Source: Hallerella succinigenes (lineage in GTDB: Bacteria; Fibrobacterota; Fibrobacteria; Fibrobacterales; Fibrobacteraceae). From it: a stretch of DNA of 64,000 bases. The position numbers and the translations under genes were made by a program. The notes below the pieces were generated by a model. It was not told the DNA's origin, ran no database searches, and worked only from the letters and a program-made list of their open reading frames with translations. Below, piece by piece: positions 16,707 to 24,923 of the stretch; within the stretch, counting starts at the first letter, position 1, and each line of letters opens with the position of its first letter. The DNA lies in assembly GCF_002797675.1 (NCBI RefSeq), contig NZ_PGEX01000001.1, positions 992,001 through 1,056,000 of the forward strand, read 5' to 3'.

Positions 16707-16939
16707 GTGTGGCTAACAGAACAAGTCTTCTCGCTATCCAGCCCCCACGGACAAGCTTTTGTCCGGCGATGTAAGTGATCAAATACCATTTGGTATCAAC
16801 CGAAAAAACTCTTAAATGGTAAGAGTGTTTCACGGTCAGTAGGAAAAGCGACGGGCTGTAGCTTCTTCTGAATTCAACCCGCTTTGAAAAAATCTTTGAA
16901 GCCGCTAACTTTGCGCCGCAACGCAACAAAGGAGGCACG
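16707..16939. other. Gene-free segment with three small hairpins upstream of the integrase
   Basis: Contains CGGACAA-GCTT-TTGTCCG (16748-16765), ATACC/GGTAT (from 16783) and ACTCTT/AAGAGT (16808-16826), then a direct repeat of CTTTGAA. There is no T-run, so these are not clear terminators. The integrase ribosome site AAAGGAGG lies at the right end. A recombination site for the integrase could lie here, but none can be shown. Confidence 0.4.
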
Positions 16940-17947
16940 ATGCGGTTCGAGAAAGCGGCGGAAAGCTGGTTCGGGAAGGCGGCGGCGGATTGGAAGGAAA
17001 GCACGCTGGCGAAATACAGGGCGCTTTTGCGGAAGCATCTGCTGCCGGCGTTCGGGGGCATGGAGGCGGAAGGAATCGGGACGGGGGATGTGCGGGATTT
17101 CGCGGAGCGGGAACTTTCGGGGTTCTCGATTTCCGCGCGGCGTTTCGCGCTTTCCACCCTTTCGCGGATATTGCAGTTCTCGCTTCCGGCGGAGCTGTTC
17201 CGTGCGCTGGAGTTCCCGAAGGGCGGGAAAGTCCGGAAGGGAAAAGCCGACTCGCTTTTGCCCGGGGAGCTCGCCGCGCTGATTCGGACGCTGGAAGGGA
17301 ACAAAAACCCGAAACGGGAGAACACGGCGCATGTCCTTTTGCTGATTGCTTTCACCGGGATGCGGCTCGGCGAAGCGTGCGCGCTCAGGCTTTCGGACTT
17401 CGACTTCGTGCGGAACACCGTTCGGATACACGCGACGCTGGAACGGCTTCCGGTCGAAAACGGCGGGACGGCGGACGGGGCGAAGGGAAAAGCCCGGACC
17501 GCCCTGCGGCTGCTGCCCGCGAAGACGGCGAGCGGCGAAAGGGAAATCCCCATCCCGGAAAAGCTGCTCGCCCGGCTGAAGGAAATGGCGGCGGAAAATC
17601 CTCCCGAGGCTCCCCTGACGACGCGCGACCCCCGGACACTGCAGAACCACTTCAAGAAATTCCTGAAAGCGGCGGGTATTTCGAAAGACGCCCACATCCA
17701 CACGCTGCGGCACACCTTCGCGACGCATTCGCTCTCCGCCGGGGCGGACCTGAAGACGCTCTCGGCGACCCTCGGCCACGCGAGCACCCACACGACTTTG
17801 GATTTATACGTGCACCCGACTTTCGAAAGCAAGCGCCGGCTGCAGGAGGCGTTCCGGCTATTCATCGCGCACCCGGAAAAGTGGGGCCGGCAGGGCGACG
17901 ATGCGGACTGGGGAGAGGGGTTCGGGAAGGGACGGCCCTTCGGGTGA
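16940..17947 (+). CDS. Tyrosine recombinase / integrase, GC-rich
   Basis: Site-specific DNA recombinase of the phage-integrase family. The N-terminal SAM-like DNA-binding domain covers residues 1-95; the catalytic domain has all expected residues: Arg142 (TGMRLGEA), Lys195, His254-x-x-Arg257 (HTLRHTF), His280 (LGHAST) and nucleophile Tyr290 (LDLYVH). AAAGGAGG precedes the ATG. Base composition is visibly much richer in GC than the flanking lpxA and IS genes, with long antisense open frames as a side effect, so it is probably a transferred gene. Two bases after its stop begins the first of two inverted palindromes, a natural candidate for its own recombination sites. No tRNA is adjacent. Confidence 0.9.
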   Translation: MRFEKAAESWFGKAAADWKESTLAKYRALLRKHLLPAFGGMEAEGIGTGDVRDFAERELSGFSISARRFALSTLSRILQFSLPAELFRALEFPKGGKVRKGKADSLLPGELAALIRTLEGNKNPKRENTAHVLLLIAFTGMRLGEACALRLSDFDFVRNTVRIHATLERLPVENGGTADGAKGKARTALRLLPAKTASGEREIPIPEKLLARLKEMAAENPPEAPLTTRDPRTLQNHFKKFLKAAGISKDAHIHTLRHTFATHSLSAGADLKTLSATLGHASTHTTLDLYVHPTFESKRRLQEAFRLFIAHPEKWGRQGDDADWGEGFGKGRPFG

Positions 17948-17948
17948 A

Positions 17949-17974
17949 TTTCGCAGAAGGGCTCTTCTGCGAAA
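17949..17974. repeat. Left 26-bp palindrome (inverted pair with 18211-18236)
   Basis: TTTCGCAGAAG, loop GGCT, CTTCTGCGAAA. The loop gives it an orientation opposite to the right copy. Confidence 0.85.
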
Positions 17975-18210
17975 GCTCCTGAGTTTGACAATAAAATATA
18001 ACTCGAAAATGTAAAATTTTCAATACACGGACAGCGAAAATCTTTACCGGATTGTTACGGGACAGAGGGAAATCAGCTCCGGGCGCAAGATTTCCAACCC
18101 CGCAGGCGAAATTTCCTGCCGGGCGCTTCCCCGCCCGTTCCCTCTTTTGCCCGGGGGCGGTTCCGGGGCGGGAAAATGCGCGCTTTCAACGTCTTTTCCC
18201 GCGATGTTTT
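17975..18210. other. Candidate invertible or regulatory segment between inverted palindromes
   Basis: 236 bases without a gene, lying between two inverted copies of a 26-bp palindrome. The left part is AT-rich and carries TTGACA at 17985 followed by AT-rich sequence (TAAAAT at 18012, spacing longer than the ideal), pointing toward the downstream gene. The right part is very GC-rich with several self-complementary runs of G and C. It could hold a promoter whose direction depends on recombination; the reading is tentative. Confidence 0.4.
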
Positions 18211-18236
18211 TTTCGCAGAAGAGCCCTTCTGCGAAA
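18211..18236. repeat. Right 26-bp palindrome (reverse complement of the left copy)
   Basis: TTTCGCAGAAG, loop AGCC, CTTCTGCGAAA; extended to a 15-bp stem by flanking T and A runs (18207-18240). It ends directly against the ribosome site of the gene at 18252. Confidence 0.85.
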
Positions 18237-18251
18237 AAAAGGAGAAAATTA

Positions 18252-18830
18252 ATGAATGAAAAAATAATCGCAGCCGCATTTGCGCAAGTAGAGAATGCGG
18301 GAGAACTCGTCAAGTTCTATTTTGAACCCTCCTTCGGCTCGCGGAACAAGTCGGACATCGACCTGATGATGTTCAAAATCTATTACGCAAGCTTGAATGG
18401 CAAAGGAACGTCGGATATCGAAATCAGCCGGGATTTGAAAATAACGCAGGCGAAGGTGCGGAGCCTGAAAAATCGGTTGCGCCTGGTCTATCCGCAGGAA
18501 CCGGGCGAAGATTTGGCCTCTTGTCTAGAGAAATTGTTCGCTATGACAAAGCGCGTCCATTACGATGAAAAGACGAACAAAATAGAAATCACCGTTCTGG
18601 ATTCCATTTTATATGAAAATTTAAAAGACAAACTGGAAGAAAATGGCGCTTCTCTGGACATTACTTTGAATCCAAAACTTTTTTCCATTACGGCAGGGCA
18701 GTTTGTCGAATTTGCGCTCGATAAATTGAATGCCGGACAAAAAAAGGAAATCCAGAAGCAATTGAAAATGCAAGGATTGAAAACGGAGCAGGGCATAATT
18801 GGTAAAGAATCCTTCAAGGAGGTTTTATAG
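18252..18830 (+). CDS. Unknown protein with helix-turn-helix-like segment
   Basis: 192 residues; family not recognised. The ATG is set by AAGGAG ten bases upstream, next to the right palindrome. The N-terminal half contains LMMFKIYYASLNGKGTSD and EISRDLKITQAKVRSLKNRL, which reads like a winged or simple helix-turn-helix. The C-terminal half is mixed alpha/beta and ends in Lys/Gln-rich helices (LNAGQKKEIQKQLKMQG). No signal peptide or membrane segment. It lies downstream of the candidate invertible segment, so it could be the gene whose expression is switched; this is inference from position only. Confidence 0.6.
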   Translation: MNEKIIAAAFAQVENAGELVKFYFEPSFGSRNKSDIDLMMFKIYYASLNGKGTSDIEISRDLKITQAKVRSLKNRLRLVYPQEPGEDLASCLEKLFAMTKRVHYDEKTNKIEITVLDSILYENLKDKLEENGASLDITLNPKLFSITAGQFVEFALDKLNAGQKKEIQKQLKMQGLKTEQGIIGKESFKEVL

Positions 18831-18882: not shown

Positions 18883-19929
18883 ATGGAAAAAGATGATGCA
18901 AGAAAGAATGTCCAGAGCCTTCTCGAAAAACGGAAGACAATCGTAAAAATGAAGAAGGCGGGATTCAAGAAAAGCAAGATCGCAGAGACCTGCGGCGTGA
19001 GCCGCCCCATGGTGGATGCAGTTCTATCGCTTTACGAGAAAGGCGGGATGAATGCGCTCAAGCCGAAGACAAGGGGCCGCAAGGAAAGGGAAAAAAGGCT
19101 CCTTTCCGCCAATCAAGAATCCGAGATACAGAAACTAATCCGGGACAAGCGTCCCGAACAGCTCAAGTTCAAGTTCGCCCTCTGGACCCGCGAAGCGGTT
19201 GCGGAGCTTGTCCGCAGCAAATTTGGAGTGAAGCTGGCCAAGAGAACGGTCGGCGACTACCTCAAAAGATGGAACTTCACCCCGCAAAAACCGATTGTCC
19301 GCGCGTACGAGCAAAACCCCGAAGCGGTGAAGAAGTGGCTCGAAGAGGAATACCCGAAAATAAAGGCCGATGCGGTATGCGAGAATGCGGAAATCCACTG
19401 GGCGGACGAGACCGCCATCGTGAACACGGATGTCCGTGGCCGCAGCTACGCCCCCTGCGGGCAGACCCCGGTCGTGAAGGCTCCCGGATGCAGGGAGCGC
19501 TTTTCCATGATATCGGCGGTGAACAATCGCGGGAAGTGCCACTGGATGATGATTGACGGGGCGTTCGACGCGACGAAGCTCATCGACTTCATGACGGCTC
19601 TGGTGAAGGATGTGTATGCAGACGGGAAAGGGAAGAAAGTGTTTCTCGTGATGGACAACCTGAGGGTTCACCACAGCAAGCCGGTAAAGGAATGGCTTGA
19701 AGCGAACACGGACAAGATAAGCGTATTCTACCTGCCCAGCTACAGTCCCGAGCTGAATCCTGACGAACGTCTTAATGCCGACCTGAAACACGAAATATCT
19801 TCCAACGCACCGGCTCGGACTCGCGAAAAGCTACGCTCCCATGCGGAATCCCACATGAAAATGGTGAGCAACAGCCCTGAACGAGTAATCAAGTATTTTG
19901 GCGACAAGCATGTCTCTTATGCAGCATGA
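18883..19929 (+). CDS. IS630-family transposase
   Basis: DDE transposase of the IS630/Tc1 group. N-terminal helix-turn-helix (FKKSKIAETCGVSRPMVDAV, residues 29-48) and a second HTH around residue 110, then the catalytic triad Asp175 (HWADET), Asp258 (VMDNLRVHH) and Glu295 (LNPDE) with the typical LPSYSPELNP run. Full length at 348 residues with no frameshift, so it may be active. Terminal inverted repeats could not be drawn: TTTACA occurs near both ends (about 18849 and, inverted, 19936) but the match does not extend. Confidence 0.9.
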   Translation: MEKDDARKNVQSLLEKRKTIVKMKKAGFKKSKIAETCGVSRPMVDAVLSLYEKGGMNALKPKTRGRKEREKRLLSANQESEIQKLIRDKRPEQLKFKFALWTREAVAELVRSKFGVKLAKRTVGDYLKRWNFTPQKPIVRAYEQNPEAVKKWLEEEYPKIKADAVCENAEIHWADETAIVNTDVRGRSYAPCGQTPVVKAPGCRERFSMISAVNNRGKCHWMMIDGAFDATKLIDFMTALVKDVYADGKGKKVFLVMDNLRVHHSKPVKEWLEANTDKISVFYLPSYSPELNPDERLNADLKHEISSNAPARTREKLRSHAESHMKMVSNSPERVIKYFGDKHVSYAA

Positions 19930-20059: not shown

Positions 20060-20668
20060 ATGAAACAAGCGATTTTCACGATACTTCTAATCTTCCCCCT
20101 CGTCGGCCTGGCTTCCTGCGAGAAGGATTCCTTCACGGACTCCCGGGACGGTCAGACCTACAGGACCGTCCAAATAGGGAACCAGACCTGGATGGCGGAG
20201 AACCTGAACTACCATACGGAAGGCAGTTCCTGCTACGGCGACAAGCCCGCCAACTGCCAAAAGTACGGCAGGCACTACACGTGGGAAGCGGCACTAAATG
20301 CCTGCCCGAGCGGTTGGCACCTGCCGAGCATGGCGGAGTTCGATACCTTGATTGCCACTGTCGGCGGGGTAGATGTCGCCGGTAAAGTTCTCAAGTCAAA
20401 GAGCGGCTGGAAGAGCGATGGCAACGGCACGGACGCCTACGGTTTTTCCGCTCTCCCGGCGGGCGTCCACTTCAGCGACGATGACTTCGGCGACGCTGGC
20501 TCCTTCGGAGACGCCGGCGACTACGCCAACTTTTGGAGCACCACGGAGGACAGTCGCCTCACCGCCGACTTAATGAGCTTGAAATACGGCGACGACCGCG
20601 CGTACCTGTATGACGGCATACAGCTCGGCCGTATATCCGTTCGTTGCCTCCGGGACTCCCGTTTGTGA
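20060..20668 (+). CDS. FISUMP-domain lipoprotein, copy 1
   Basis: 202-residue lipoprotein (lipobox GLASC at residue 19) carrying one Fibrobacter succinogenes major paralogous domain: DGQTYRTVQIGNQTWMAENL, CPSGWHLPSMAEF, GFSALPAG, NFWSTTE and the ending SVRCLRD. The fold is expected to be C-type-lectin-like and surface-exposed; function of the family is unknown. Its signal peptide and upstream region differ from copies 2-4, and the segment after ALPAG is longer and differs in sequence. Within that segment it is closest to copy 4, with which it shares a long identical run around LKYGDDRAYLYDG. A GAGG ribosome site precedes the ATG. Confidence 0.85.
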   Translation: MKQAIFTILLIFPLVGLASCEKDSFTDSRDGQTYRTVQIGNQTWMAENLNYHTEGSSCYGDKPANCQKYGRHYTWEAALNACPSGWHLPSMAEFDTLIATVGGVDVAGKVLKSKSGWKSDGNGTDAYGFSALPAGVHFSDDDFGDAGSFGDAGDYANFWSTTEDSRLTADLMSLKYGDDRAYLYDGIQLGRISVRCLRDSRL

Positions 20669-20701
20669 GGTCTAACGCCTGCCGCAGGCAGGCCAAAGAC
20701 C
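20669..20701. repeat. Hairpin directly after FISUMP copy 1
   Basis: GGTCT, AAC, GCCTGCC, loop GCA, GGCAGGC, CAA, AGACC: a 12-bp two-part stem starting at the base after the stop codon. No T-run follows, so it is not a standard terminator. Confidence 0.8.
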
Positions 20702-20885
20702 TTACAAACCGCCGCTCAGGGGGAGCGCAGCTCCACCACAGCGGCGCGGCGGCGATTCCCAGCTTTCAGGGCCGATCGGACGTTTCCCGGGCTAGGACTC
20801 ACTTTTCACAATCAACCCATCAATCAACCAATTACTGGATTTGCTTATCAAGGCGGAAAAAGCGCAGAAACGCTAGGAGAACCAA
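20702..20885. repeat. Conserved inter-FISUMP spacer
   Basis: Same spacer recurs after copies 2 and 3 nearly unchanged (3 differences in about 217 bases between those two, hairpin included). It holds a second hairpin (CGCCGCT ... GGAGC-GCA-GCTCC ... AGCGGCG, about 20710-20757) and ends in the AGGAGAACC ribosome site of the next gene. No open frame of note. Confidence 0.75.
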
Positions 20886-21482
20886 ATGCATATTAAACGA
20901 TTCCTCTTCACAGCCCTAGCCCTTTTCCCCCTCGTCGGCCTGGCTTCCTGCGAGAAGGATTCCTTCACGGACCCCCGGGACGGTCAGACCTACAGGACCG
21001 TCCAAATAGGGAACCAGACCTGGATGGCGGAGAACCTAAACTATAAAATGAAAGGCAGTTACTGCTACGGCGACAAGCCCGCCAACTGCCAAAAGTACGG
21101 CAGGCACTACACGTGGGAAGCGGCAATGGATGCCTGCCCGAGCGGTTGGCACCTGCCGAGCATAGCGGAGTTCGATACCTTGATTGCCGCTGTCGGCGGG
21201 CTGGGCGTCGCCGGTAAAGTTCTCAAGTCAAAGAGCTGCAGGAAGAGCGATGGCAACGGCACGGACGCCTACGGTTTTTCCGCTCTCCCGGCGGGCAACC
21301 GCTACCTCGATGGCGACTTCGACCACGCCGGCTACGACGCCCACTTTTGGAGCGCCACGGGGCGCGATAGCGTCGACGCCTACAACATGTACTTGGGCTG
21401 CGACTCCGACTACGCGTACCCGCTTTACCTCGACAAGAACTTCGGTTTGTCCGTTCGTTGCCTCCGGGACTCCCGTTTGTGA
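20886..21482 (+). CDS. FISUMP-domain lipoprotein, copy 2
   Basis: 198 residues; signal peptide MHIKRFLFTALALFPLVGL with lipobox ASC, then one FISUMP domain. The first 135 residues match copy 3 with very few differences; from the Ala of ALPAG to the Phe before GLSVRC the sequence is extensively altered. That segment consists largely of NNC codons (AAC, GAC, CAC, TAC, GGC, CTC) and supplies polar and aromatic residues. The tail GLSVRCLRDSRL is invariant. The unit repeats with an 814-base period. See the finding on localised hypervariation. Confidence 0.85.
   Translation: MHIKRFLFTALALFPLVGLASCEKDSFTDPRDGQTYRTVQIGNQTWMAENLNYKMKGSYCYGDKPANCQKYGRHYTWEAAMDACPSGWHLPSIAEFDTLIAAVGGLGVAGKVLKSKSCRKSDGNGTDAYGFSALPAGNRYLDGDFDHAGYDAHFWSATGRDSVDAYNMYLGCDSDYAYPLYLDKNFGLSVRCLRDSRL
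21291..21443 (+). other. Hypervariable segment of FISUMP copy 2
   Basis: 153 bases that differ from copy 3 at 29 positions by hand count, only one of them at a third codon position, while the flanking 39-base coding tail is identical. Confidence 0.75.
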
Positions 21483-21515
21483 GGTCTAACGCCTGCCGCA
21501 AGCAGGCCAAAGACC
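21483..21515. repeat. Hairpin directly after FISUMP copy 2
   Basis: Same element as after copy 1, with one G to A change (AGCAGGC) that breaks the loop-closing pair. Confidence 0.75.
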
Positions 21516-21699
21516 TTACAAACCGCCGCTCAGGGGGAGCGCAGCTCCACCACAGCGGCGCGGCGGCGATTCCCAGCTTTCAGGGCCGATCGGACGTTTC
21601 CCGGGCTAGGACTCACTTTTCACAATCAACCCATCAATCAACCAATTACTGGATCTGCTTATCAAGGCGAAAAAAGCGCAAAAACGCTAGGAGAACCAG

Positions 21700-22296
21700 A
21701 TGCATATTAAACGATTCCTCTTCACAGCCCTAGCCCTTTTCCCCCTCGTCGGCCTGGCTTCCTGCGAGAAGGATTCCTTCACGGACTCCCGGGACGGTCA
21801 GACCTACAGGACCGTCCAAATAGGGAACCAGACCTGGATGGCGGAGAACCTGAACTATAAAATGAAAGGCAGTTACTGCTACGGCGACAAGCCCGCCAAC
21901 TGCCAAAAGTACGGCAGGCACTATACGTGGGAAGCGGCAATGGATGCCTGCCCGAGCGGTTGGCACCTGCCGAGCATGGCGGAGTTCGATACCTTGATTG
22001 CCGCTGTCGGCGGGCTGGGCGTCGCCGGTAAAGTTCTCAAGTCAAAGAGCGGCTGGAAGAGCGATGGCAACGGCACGGACGCCTACGGTTTTTCCGCTCT
22101 CCCGGAGGGCTACCGCTACCCCGATGGCGACTTCGGCCTCGCCGGCTACTACGCCAACTTTTGGAGCGCCACGGAGTACAATAGCGGCAACGCCTACAGG
22201 ATGAGCATGGACTACTTCAGCGACTACGCGTACCCGAATTACCTCGACAAGCCCCTCGGTTTGTCCGTTCGTTGCCTCCGGGACTCCCGTTTGTGA
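21700..22296 (+). CDS. FISUMP-domain lipoprotein, copy 3
   Basis: 198 residues, same signal peptide and lipobox as copy 2 and the same FISUMP landmarks. Outside the variable segment it differs from copy 2 at about six bases in the 5' two thirds of the gene. The variable stretch replaces, for example, AAC by TAC, CAC by AAC, GAT by AAT, CTT by AAT and AAC by CCC, keeping the third base. Ribosome site AGGAGAACC. Same spacer on both sides, so the copies arose by tandem duplication of an 814-base unit and then diverged in one place only. Confidence 0.85.
   Translation: MHIKRFLFTALALFPLVGLASCEKDSFTDSRDGQTYRTVQIGNQTWMAENLNYKMKGSYCYGDKPANCQKYGRHYTWEAAMDACPSGWHLPSMAEFDTLIAAVGGLGVAGKVLKSKSGWKSDGNGTDAYGFSALPEGYRYPDGDFGLAGYYANFWSATEYNSGNAYRMSMDYFSDYAYPNYLDKPLGLSVRCLRDSRL
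22105..22257 (+). other. Hypervariable segment of FISUMP copy 3
   Basis: Counterpart of 21291-21443, same length, rich in AAC/AAT/TAC/AGC codons; of the 29 differences to copy 2, 21 have an adenine in one copy. Confidence 0.75.
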
Positions 22297-22329
22297 GGTC
22301 TAACGCCTGCCGCAGGCAGGCCAAAGACC
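22297..22329. repeat. Hairpin directly after FISUMP copy 3
   Basis: Perfect copy of the element at 20669-20701, beginning at the base after the stop codon. Confidence 0.8.
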
Positions 22330-22513
22330 TTACAAACCGCCGCTCAGGGGGAGCGCAGCTCCACCACAGCGGCGCGGCGGCGATTCCCAGCTTTCAGGGC
22401 CGATCGGACGTTTCCCGGGCTAGGACTCACTTTTCACAATCAACCCATCAATCAACCAATTACTGGATCTGCTTATCAAGGCGAAAAAAGCGCAGAAACG
22501 CTAGGAGAACCAA

Positions 22514-23113
22514 ATGCATATTAAACGATTCCTCTTCACAGCCCTAGCCCTTTTCCCCCTCGTCGGCCTGGCTTCCTGCGAGAAGGATTCCTTCACGGAC
22601 CCCCGGGACGGTCAGACCTACAGGACCGTCCAAATAGGGAACCAGACCTGGATGGCGGAGAACCTGAACTACCATACGGAAGGCAGTTCCTGCTACGGCG
22701 ACAAGCCCGCCAACTGCCAAAAGTACGGCAGGCACTACACGTGGGAAGCGGCAATGGATGCCTGCCCGAGCGGTTGGCACCTGCCGAGCATGGCGGAGTT
22801 CGATACCTTGATTGCCACTGTCGGCGGGCTGGGCGTCGCCGGTAAAGTTCTCAAGTCAAAGAGCGGCTGGAAGAGCGATGGCAACGGCACGGACGCTTAC
22901 GGTTTTTCCGCTCTCCCGGCGGGCTTCCACGTCAGCGACGCTGGCTACTTCGGCGACGCCGGCGACTACGCCAACTTTTGGAGCACCACGGAGGACTGGC
23001 GCCTCGCCGCCGACTTCATGAGCTTGAAATACGGCGACGACCGCGCGTACCTGTATGACGGCGCGAAGAACTTCGGTTTGTCCGTTCGTTGCCTCCGGGA
23101 CTCCCGTTTGTGA
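22514..23113 (+). CDS. FISUMP-domain lipoprotein, copy 4
   Basis: 199 residues. The signal peptide and first part are those of copies 2 and 3, but the NYHTEGSSCYG stretch matches copy 1, as does much of the variable segment (FWSTTED, LKYGDDRAYLYDG). The tail is again GLSVRCLRDSRL. The mosaic suggests gene conversion or unequal exchange between copies in addition to point diversification. Last intact copy; its hairpin follows, after which the spacer changes to sequence belonging to the 3' side of the nuclease gene on the other strand. Confidence 0.85.
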   Translation: MHIKRFLFTALALFPLVGLASCEKDSFTDPRDGQTYRTVQIGNQTWMAENLNYHTEGSSCYGDKPANCQKYGRHYTWEAAMDACPSGWHLPSMAEFDTLIATVGGLGVAGKVLKSKSGWKSDGNGTDAYGFSALPAGFHVSDAGYFGDAGDYANFWSTTEDWRLAADFMSLKYGDDRAYLYDGAKNFGLSVRCLRDSRL

Positions 23114-23146
23114 GGTCTAAAGCCTGCCGCAGGCAGGCCAAAGACT
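23114..23146. repeat. Hairpin directly after FISUMP copy 4
   Basis: Same element with A in place of C in the first bulge and a terminal G-T pair. Confidence 0.75.
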
Positions 23147-23351
23147 TTACAAACCGCCGCTCAGGGGGAGCGCAGCTCCATCACAGCGGCGCGGCGGCGA
23201 TTCCGGCAAGCCCCAGCCCACAGGGCGGGGGCTTCAATGTTTCATCCTATCCATCAAACGCGAAAATAAGCAAAGCATCTACTTTCTTTGCGACTGCAGG
23301 TACTAGCAGGTTTGGGGTGTTTCCGCAAGTGGCTGTCGTTAGAAACGGAAA

Positions 23352-24344
23352 TTACAGCTTGCGGATTTCTTCCTCGGAAAGGCCGGTTTGCCGAGCGATT
23401 AGTTCCAAGGATATGCCGGCATCGCGGAAACCTTTCGCCATTTCCCTCCGCTCCCTTTCCATGCCGATCCCGATGCCTTCGTCGCGACCCTTTTCGAAAC
23501 CAAAGTCAACCCCCTCCTCGTACTTCGCGGCAAGGGCCTTCTCTTCGGCTTCGGCGATGGTTTCGTAACCGTACGCTTCGGATGTCTTGACAAAGTCCAT
23601 TTGGAATTCCTCTTTCTCTTCCTGCGGGAGGAGTTTCTTCAAATATAGAAATGTCTGCGTGAGGAAACTCTCCGCTTCGTCCCGGGGCAGTTCCTTCAGC
23701 ATCTTCACGGCGGTGCGTAGGTGGCTCTGCATCTTTTCGCCATGGAAGACGTACTTCATGGCGACCAAAGCCAGCGCGATTTTCGGGGAGATGTCCCGGA
23801 TTTCGTTTGTGCTGAAACTGTCGCCGATGTCCACCAGCTCGAGGACGAACGGCAGGCCGATGCGGTGGTAGTATGCCGGGTAGTCCGGGAACATGGTTCT
23901 CACGTCCAGGTTCCAGCGTTCCCTGCCGTTATAGAAGACGATGGCGACGGTGGGAATGTTCTTTTGCGTCTTGACCATGATGTGGTACCAGTACTTGACG
24001 AGCTGCGAGACGACATTCGGGTCCTTGGAGGACTTGTGCTCCTCCAGAATGCCGACGAGGAGGTCGGCGGAACGCTTCGCCTTTTCGCCTTCGTTTCCGC
24101 CTGTATTTTCGATTTCTTCCCCGGCGATTCTGACAGTGAACGCCAGATCCGCGTAGCCGAAGGTTTCCGTGTCGCTGAAGGATTCGGAGATTTCGGTGAG
24201 GGTCGATAGGTCGACGGTTTTCAGGAACTCGGCGAGGCTCCTGTTGTTTTTGGCGACAAGGCGCAAAAGTTCCGCGGCACGGTCCGGTGCCTTGAAGACG
24301 GAGCGGAAGTAGGAGTCATGCGGGGTGCGGCTGGTTTCGGTCAT
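23352..24344 (-). CDS. Rpn-family recombination-promoting nuclease / putative transposase (PD-(D/E)XK)
   Basis: 330 residues. Rpn-type proteins are PD-(D/E)XK nucleases that stimulate RecA-independent recombination. Visible landmarks are [10 protein letters not shown] (residues 9-18), ADLAFTV, the core [12 protein letters not shown] (catalytic E-x-K region) followed by LVKYWYHIM, then [11 protein letters not shown] charged C-terminal tail ends in a degenerate repeat ([20 protein letters not shown]) and SEEEIRKL. The ATG at 24344 has AGAGGA upstream. The 3' end of this gene occurs a second time at 24693-24915, fused with a FISUMP 3' end. Confidence 0.85.
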
Positions 24345-24466
24345 GATGTTCCTCTTGGATACGGACTTTCCCCATGAATGTCCTATTCCTTTAAACGCTC
24401 GAACGGGAAATTTTTCCACCTCGATTCGTGTAAAATATTGTTTGCAGGGGAGATGTTTTTTTTCGT

Positions 24467-24540
24467 TGCCTCCGGAACTCCCGTTTGTGAGGTCTAAAGC
24501 CTGCCGCAGGCAGGCCAAAGACCTTACAAACCGCCGCTCA
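24467..24540 (+). pseudogene. FISUMP 3'-end relic with hairpin
   Basis: Last codons RCLR(N)SRL, stop, and the post-stop hairpin (24491-24523) of a fifth FISUMP copy, without any gene body; preceded by a T-run. It is the left end of a duplicated block that also carries the nuclease 3' end. Confidence 0.8.
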
Positions 24541-24692
24541 GGGGGAGCGCAGCCCCAGCCCACAGGGCGGGGCTTCAATGTTTCATCCTATCCATCAAAC
24601 GCGAAAATAAGCAAAGCATCTACTTTCTTTGCGACTGCAGGTACTAGCAGGTTTGGGGTGTTTCCGGCGGAGGCTTTCGTTCGAAACAGAAA

Positions 24693-24915
24693 TTACAGTT
24701 TGCGGATTTCTTCCTCGGAAAGGCCGGTTTGCCGAGCAATTAGTTCCAAGGATATGCCGGCATCGCGGAAACCTTTCGCCATTTCCCTCCGCTCCCTTTC
24801 CATGCCGATCCCGATCCCCTCCTCGTACTTCGCGGCAAGGGCCTTCTCTTCGGCTTCGGCGATGGTTTCGTAACCGTACGCTTCGGATGTCTTGACAAAG
24901 TCCATTTGGAATTCC
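24693..24915 (-). pseudogene. Truncated duplicate of the Rpn nuclease 3' end
   Basis: About 70 codons matching the C-terminal part of the gene at 23352-24344 ([20 protein letters not shown] to SEEEIRKL), with an internal deletion of about eleven codons in the charged repeat. No upstream part or start region. Together with 24467-24540 it is a duplicate of about 23087-23606. It abuts the 3' end of the CCA-adding enzyme gene. Confidence 0.85.
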
Positions 24916-24923
24916 TCTTAAAT

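Follow-up and report, generated by a model that had tools for sequence, protein, structure and literature searches.

Tandem FISUMP lipoprotein genes of Hallerella succinigenes as probable orphaned targets of a diversity-generating retroelement

The targets of diversity-generating retroelements (DGRs) can outlive the machinery that acts on them: among 17 strains of Treponema denticola 9 carry a DGR, and target genes persist in strains that lack the reverse transcriptase (RT) and the template (PMC4891356). Fib_succ_major domains have been reported as DGR targets (PMC4159848, PMC8143477), and in the Bordetella phage BPP-1 a hairpin or cruciform 3' of the variable region (VR) is required for target recognition, its stem sequence being free to vary (PMC3240598). 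A sequence-only reading that preceded this analysis knew of no firm description of FISUMP arrays as DGR targets, a statement rendered outdated by the Fib_succ_major targets of the former two reports; for Fibrobacter, DGR targets of the Fib_succ_major type are not described in the papers found. Since FISUMP DGR targets are already published, the kind is known: both orphan DGR targets and FISUMP domains as DGR targets are on record, and what is presented below is not a new system.

Here we describe a locus of Hallerella succinigenes (NZ_PGEX01000001.1) that consists of four tandem FISUMP lipoprotein genes and is very probably a recently orphaned array, formerly diversified in trans by a DGR whose core was lost or was supplied from outside the assembly. 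The window, a stretch of 64,000 nucleotides (positions 992,001 to 1,056,000), belongs to a genome that is a single contig of 3.127 Mb with a completeness score of 100%.

The array and its variable regions

The array occupies window positions 20060-23113 on the forward strand and comprises four FISUMP lipoprotein genes in tandem, nearly identical in gene body and spacer: copy 1 (20060..20668; 202 aa, with its own signal peptide and the lipobox LASC), copy 2 (20886..21482; 198 aa, 597 bp), copy 3 (21700..22296; 198 aa, 597 bp) and copy 4 (22514..23113; 199 aa). Matches to PF09603 and TIGR02145 above cut-off, those of copies 1 and 3 among them, place the array genes in FISUMP/Fib_succ_major, of which the whole genome holds 47 matches. 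The variable regions lie at the 3' gene end, keep their third bases constant and are devoid of stop codons. They extend over 21291..21443 in copy 2 and 22105..22257 in copy 3, as located by alignment of the two copies and by mapping on a relative's template (see below), and have putative boundaries at 20459..20629 in copy 1, which in the alignment carries an 18-base insertion relative to copies 2 and 3, and at 22919..23074 in copy 4. The homology between template and VR ends 3' in a conserved block (SVRCLRD codons, 21447..21474 in copy 2) that the alignment recovers in all copies and that is, by its position, a candidate initiation-of-mutagenic-homing (IMH) site. Further downstream in the window, the region 24456-24919 is a segmental duplicate of ~23079-23614 and contains a solo FISUMP tail with a hairpin and part of the neighbouring Rpn-like gene.

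A C-type lectin fold is likely for the array proteins, a view that rests on prior reports (PMC4159848), the PDB matches obtained here being non-significant: the AlphaFold2 model is confident (pLDDT 90) and retrieves many C-type lectins as well as 4eps, all with E 0.03 or worse, and a sequence search of the PDB returned nothing relevant. Among viral proteins, the best matches (E 2e-14) are phage proteins annotated as FISUMP. The variable codons would lie on one binding face.

Copies 2 and 3 differ at 35 positions over the 597-bp coding sequence, 29 of them inside 21291-21443 and 6 in the remainder, to which the 217-bp spacer adds 3 and the identical 39-base tail none. The variable segment thus differs at 29 of 153 bases and the rest at 9 of 661 (~1.4% in the flanks), a concentration far above chance; within the 51 codons of the segment, 28 of the differences are found at codon positions 1-2 and a single one at position 3. 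The sequence-only reading had reported these figures (29/153, 28 at codon positions 1-2, 21 with an A, an identical 39-base tail), and all of them proved exact. The adenine bias that it saw in them is correct as a count, 21 of the 29 differing pairs having an A in one copy, but weak by itself, because base composition per codon position leads one to expect ~16; an excess this modest does not alone show a DGR, and after composition correction the presence of an A in one copy was rejected as sole evidence. It is on independent templates that adenine specificity is seen.

The 47 FISUMP matches of the genome would, in principle, provide material for gene conversion or recombination importing diverged segments from other FISUMP genes. 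Across the whole genome, however, matches to the variable region of copy 3 outside the array do not exceed 74% identity, short tail fragments aside, so that no donor could be named, and the third-position and scaffold changes expected from such imports are absent; we deem this explanation highly improbable.

Adenine sites on the templates of relatives

PF00078 identifies reverse transcriptases in 61 of the 168 genomes of the phylum and none in that of H. succinigenes; within the genus, an RT occurs in 2 of 6 genomes, in one of them merely as a contig-end fragment. The nearest named relative, Fibrobacter intestinalis ATCC 43854 (G140), belongs to the same genus; its contig C41 carries a matching array, and contig C92 (locus L116) combines a pair of FISUMP genes with an accessory gene of 262 aa, a template of 199 bases that translates into an Asn-rich sequence (GNRNGDGNYNNAGKNANFWSSTENSGNNAYSWNFNYDNENVNSNYNNKNNG) and an RT bearing the DGR-type motif LPIGNLTSQ. 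Targets lie both adjacent to this core and at remote loci (L117, L118, L119). Clear targets show mismatch rates of 0.43-0.56 at template adenines and 0.01-0.09 elsewhere, the figures for an older remote target (L117 5922-6119) being 0.63 and 0.20; expressed as shares, 73-97% of the mismatches in targets fall on template A, and 58% in one older remote target. At L117 6195-6839, in a gene of the matching array, a target region that fits the species' own template is joined, with a deletion and a frameshift, to a tail of the window type.

We compared 21 RT loci of the family, namely that of F. intestinalis and 20 further ones (L225-L244), of which 19 contain an A-biased template/target pair, the template of the twentieth having been found by probe. 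The template reads as a FISUMP-type C terminus in 16 of the 21 loci and is of another type in the remaining five, e.g. SRWLAVRNNNNNAWNF; judging by these templates, FISUMP-type DGRs are widespread in the family. At least four intact RTs are found in a single genome (G070).

When the differences between copies 2 and 3 are mapped on the template L238, which stems from another genus of the family (genome G097) and aligns to the window copies without gaps, 26 of the 29 sit on template adenines (26/67 A sites versus 3/86 others within the 153 bases, p=1.9e-8), and the F. intestinalis template, with 23 of the 29 on its adenines, gives p=2.3e-7; as these p-values, and those that follow, assume independent sites, they serve as a guide only. 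Restricting the L238 mapping to codon positions 1-2, whereby the trivial third-base effect is removed, yields p=7.6e-5, with 2 of 37 non-A positions changed. The L238 template has AAY codons at 18 of the 22 variable codons. One of its AAY codons corresponds to Ser 174, encoded by TCC in copy 2 and by AGC in copy 3. Two replacements that leave the amino acid as it was would be hard to obtain by selection, but are expected from two random draws from AAC. Non-A sites of the variable region differ at 3/93 between the two copies, about as rarely as the flanks (9/661), which argues against the segment being just an older piece that has diverged further. Copies 1 and 4 bear a weaker signature (13 A-site and 6 other differences, p=0.015). 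When the window copies, given A at the variable sites, served as a probe, the top match outside the genome was the template adjoining the G097 RT, and the templates of G045 and G070 also ranked high. The mapping is indirect, since the best known template agrees with the array at only ~80-83% of non-A sites and the parent template of the array is not among the known ones.

These observations bear on the idea that the segment was shaped by ordinary point mutation and by very strong selection for diversity on the face that binds the ligand, with gene conversion homogenising the remainder. C-type-lectin-like domains do vary at exposed residues, the flanks are nearly identical, as this idea would have it, and template adenines lie at exposed sites of the fold, where site-specific diversifying selection would be expected to act as well. 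Against it stand the 28 changes at codon positions 1-2, with a single one at position 3, next to flanks differing by ~1.4%, the two replacements needed for the Ser-Ser change, and the nearly unchanged non-A sites of codon positions 1-2. We regard it as improbable, and read the array instead as a convincing record of adenine-templated diversification.

The signature extends to other FISUMP genes of the genome. A second array at 372652-375209 (genome coordinates, G000:C1) consists of three tandem FISUMP lipoprotein genes, each pair of which has 28-29 differences at template-adenine sites and 2/127 at other sites, and the 3' end of a FISUMP gene at 402071-402649 agrees with the F. intestinalis template, mismatches being found at 25/57 A sites and 11/139 others. 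Three other paralogues (89 k, 91 k and 94 k) differ at 15-19% of the other sites, with many third-base changes, and are older.

Absence of the core and genomic setting

The sequence-only reading had supposed that the reverse transcriptase and the template lie elsewhere in the genome. The search of the complete, one-contig genome does not support this: it gave neither a DGR-type RT (by RVT_1, by the F. intestinalis RT and by a 17-RT profile that scores relatives' genomes used as controls at E<1e-110 and finds the intact DGRs there) nor a template with A at the variable sites, the queries (copy 3, the F. intestinalis template and the A-substituted probe) returning only FISUMP genes or weak matches. 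The F. intestinalis accessory protein, a single-sequence query run without a positive control in that search, found no accessory gene in the genome. Among in-genome template candidates, the best matches of the F. intestinalis template turned out to be FISUMP genes (402071-402649, 373764-374261 and others), and a partial FISUMP open reading frame at 2492736 was discarded as a gene remnant without AAY runs. Of the earlier proposal, DGR mutagenesis of the variable segment is supported, by the adenine-specific signature on other species' templates and by a 3' hairpin (see below), whereas an RT and template elsewhere in this genome are not. With the core absent from a complete genome, "was diversified" fits better than "is diversified", and with RT, accessory gene and template all missing we read the array as a set of orphaned targets.

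The history that we favor can be outlined as follows. A DGR reverse transcriptase would have copied template RNA, inserting random bases wherever the template has adenine. The resulting cDNA would have replaced the 3' part of each gene, from the conserved GFSALP end to the SVRCLRD/hairpin end, so that AAY codons on a single face of the binding domain were rewritten while the scaffold stayed untouched. Tandem duplication, and probably homogenisation, would have kept gene bodies and spacers near-identical. The core, i.e. accessory gene, template and RT, would later have been lost, or would have come from an element outside the assembly, and the array would now be an orphaned, fixed repertoire. 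We infer retrohoming as the cause, a recent loss, and surface display and ligand binding of the array proteins.

It may be, conversely, that the DGR was not lost and works in trans, carried by a plasmid, phage or integrative element that the assembly does not contain or that resides in other strains. The fresh look of the diversification in both arrays, the patchy RT in the genus (2/6 genomes) and a tyrosine recombinase and a transposase near the array speak in its favor; against it, the assembly forms a single contig with a completeness score of 100%, the family DGRs examined reside in bacterial genomes, with the RT adjoining at least one target in nearly all, and RT relatives in viral contigs share only 28-39% identity, for which reason they were set aside. 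Such an outside source is unlikely in our estimation, and a shade less likely still is its most far-reaching form, whereby both tandem arrays are under live adenine-targeted diversification from a mobile or extrachromosomal core visiting strains, in which case target arrays and mutator would be inherited separately. Orphaned targets remain our preferred reading.

In all four window copies the SVRCLRD block is followed at once by a hairpin, immediately 3' of the VR, whose 13-bp outer stem overlaps the stop codon (20661..20709, z -6.3; 21475..21523, z -5.2; 22289..22337, z -6.3; 23106..23154, z -4.2; copies 1 to 4). A hairpin of unrelated sequence occupies the same place in most active targets of the family; the window hairpins could instead be terminators, and a strong hairpin 3' of the VR was looked for and not found in the second array (372652-375209).

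Upstream of the array lies a tyrosine recombinase-like gene (16940..17947, forward strand), a relative of which (58% aa) is located upstream of the F. intestinalis DGR. The recombinase and the DNA downstream of it (16904-18265) are 67% identical to the stretch upstream of that DGR, possibly as a shared island, and the chromosomal neighbours further out differ between the two loci. An IS630-like transposase, assigned by inspection, directly precedes copy 1 (18883..19929, forward strand); an identical copy (404936-405979) is situated ~2.3 kb from the FISUMP gene at 402071-402649. Recombinase and transposase may have contributed to the movement or loss of the DGR core.

Comparison with known DGR systems

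These results show that past DGR activity can be read in a genome without a DGR, once paralogue differences are mapped on the templates of relatives, and that DGR action may explain part of the large FISUMP paralogue set in Fibrobacter, given a FISUMP-type template in 16/21 RT loci. Tandem arrays would offer the host several variants at once, which would be fixed if the mutator is lost. What seems to be undescribed in the literature searched are the tandem arrays, the arrays without an RT and the breadth of FISUMP-type DGRs in the family.

The window array resembles the DGR targets of F. intestinalis, a member of the same genus, in its FISUMP domain, 3'-end VR, AAY-codon variability and hairpin 3' of the VR, and in the related tyrosine recombinase upstream; it differs in that accessory gene, template and RT adjoin the targets there and are all absent here, and the F. 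intestinalis template is not its direct parent. With the Fib_succ_major/DUF1566 targets of human microbiomes and Bacteroides phages it shares a PF09603 domain diversified at the C terminus (PMC4159848, PMC8143477), whereas an RT and a template accompany the target in those systems. Its hairpin, which adjoins the VR on the 3' side and lies at the stop codon, recalls mtd of BPP-1 (PMC3240598), which is, unlike the window array, a phage tail protein of a complete, active element. Finally, the T. denticola DGR (TvpA family) offers a parallel in its several targets per genome, its target proteins of C-type-lectin type (as is likely for those of the window array), its gain and loss between strains and its leftover targets, although these belong to another target family and phylum, and the leftovers of the window form tight tandem arrays.
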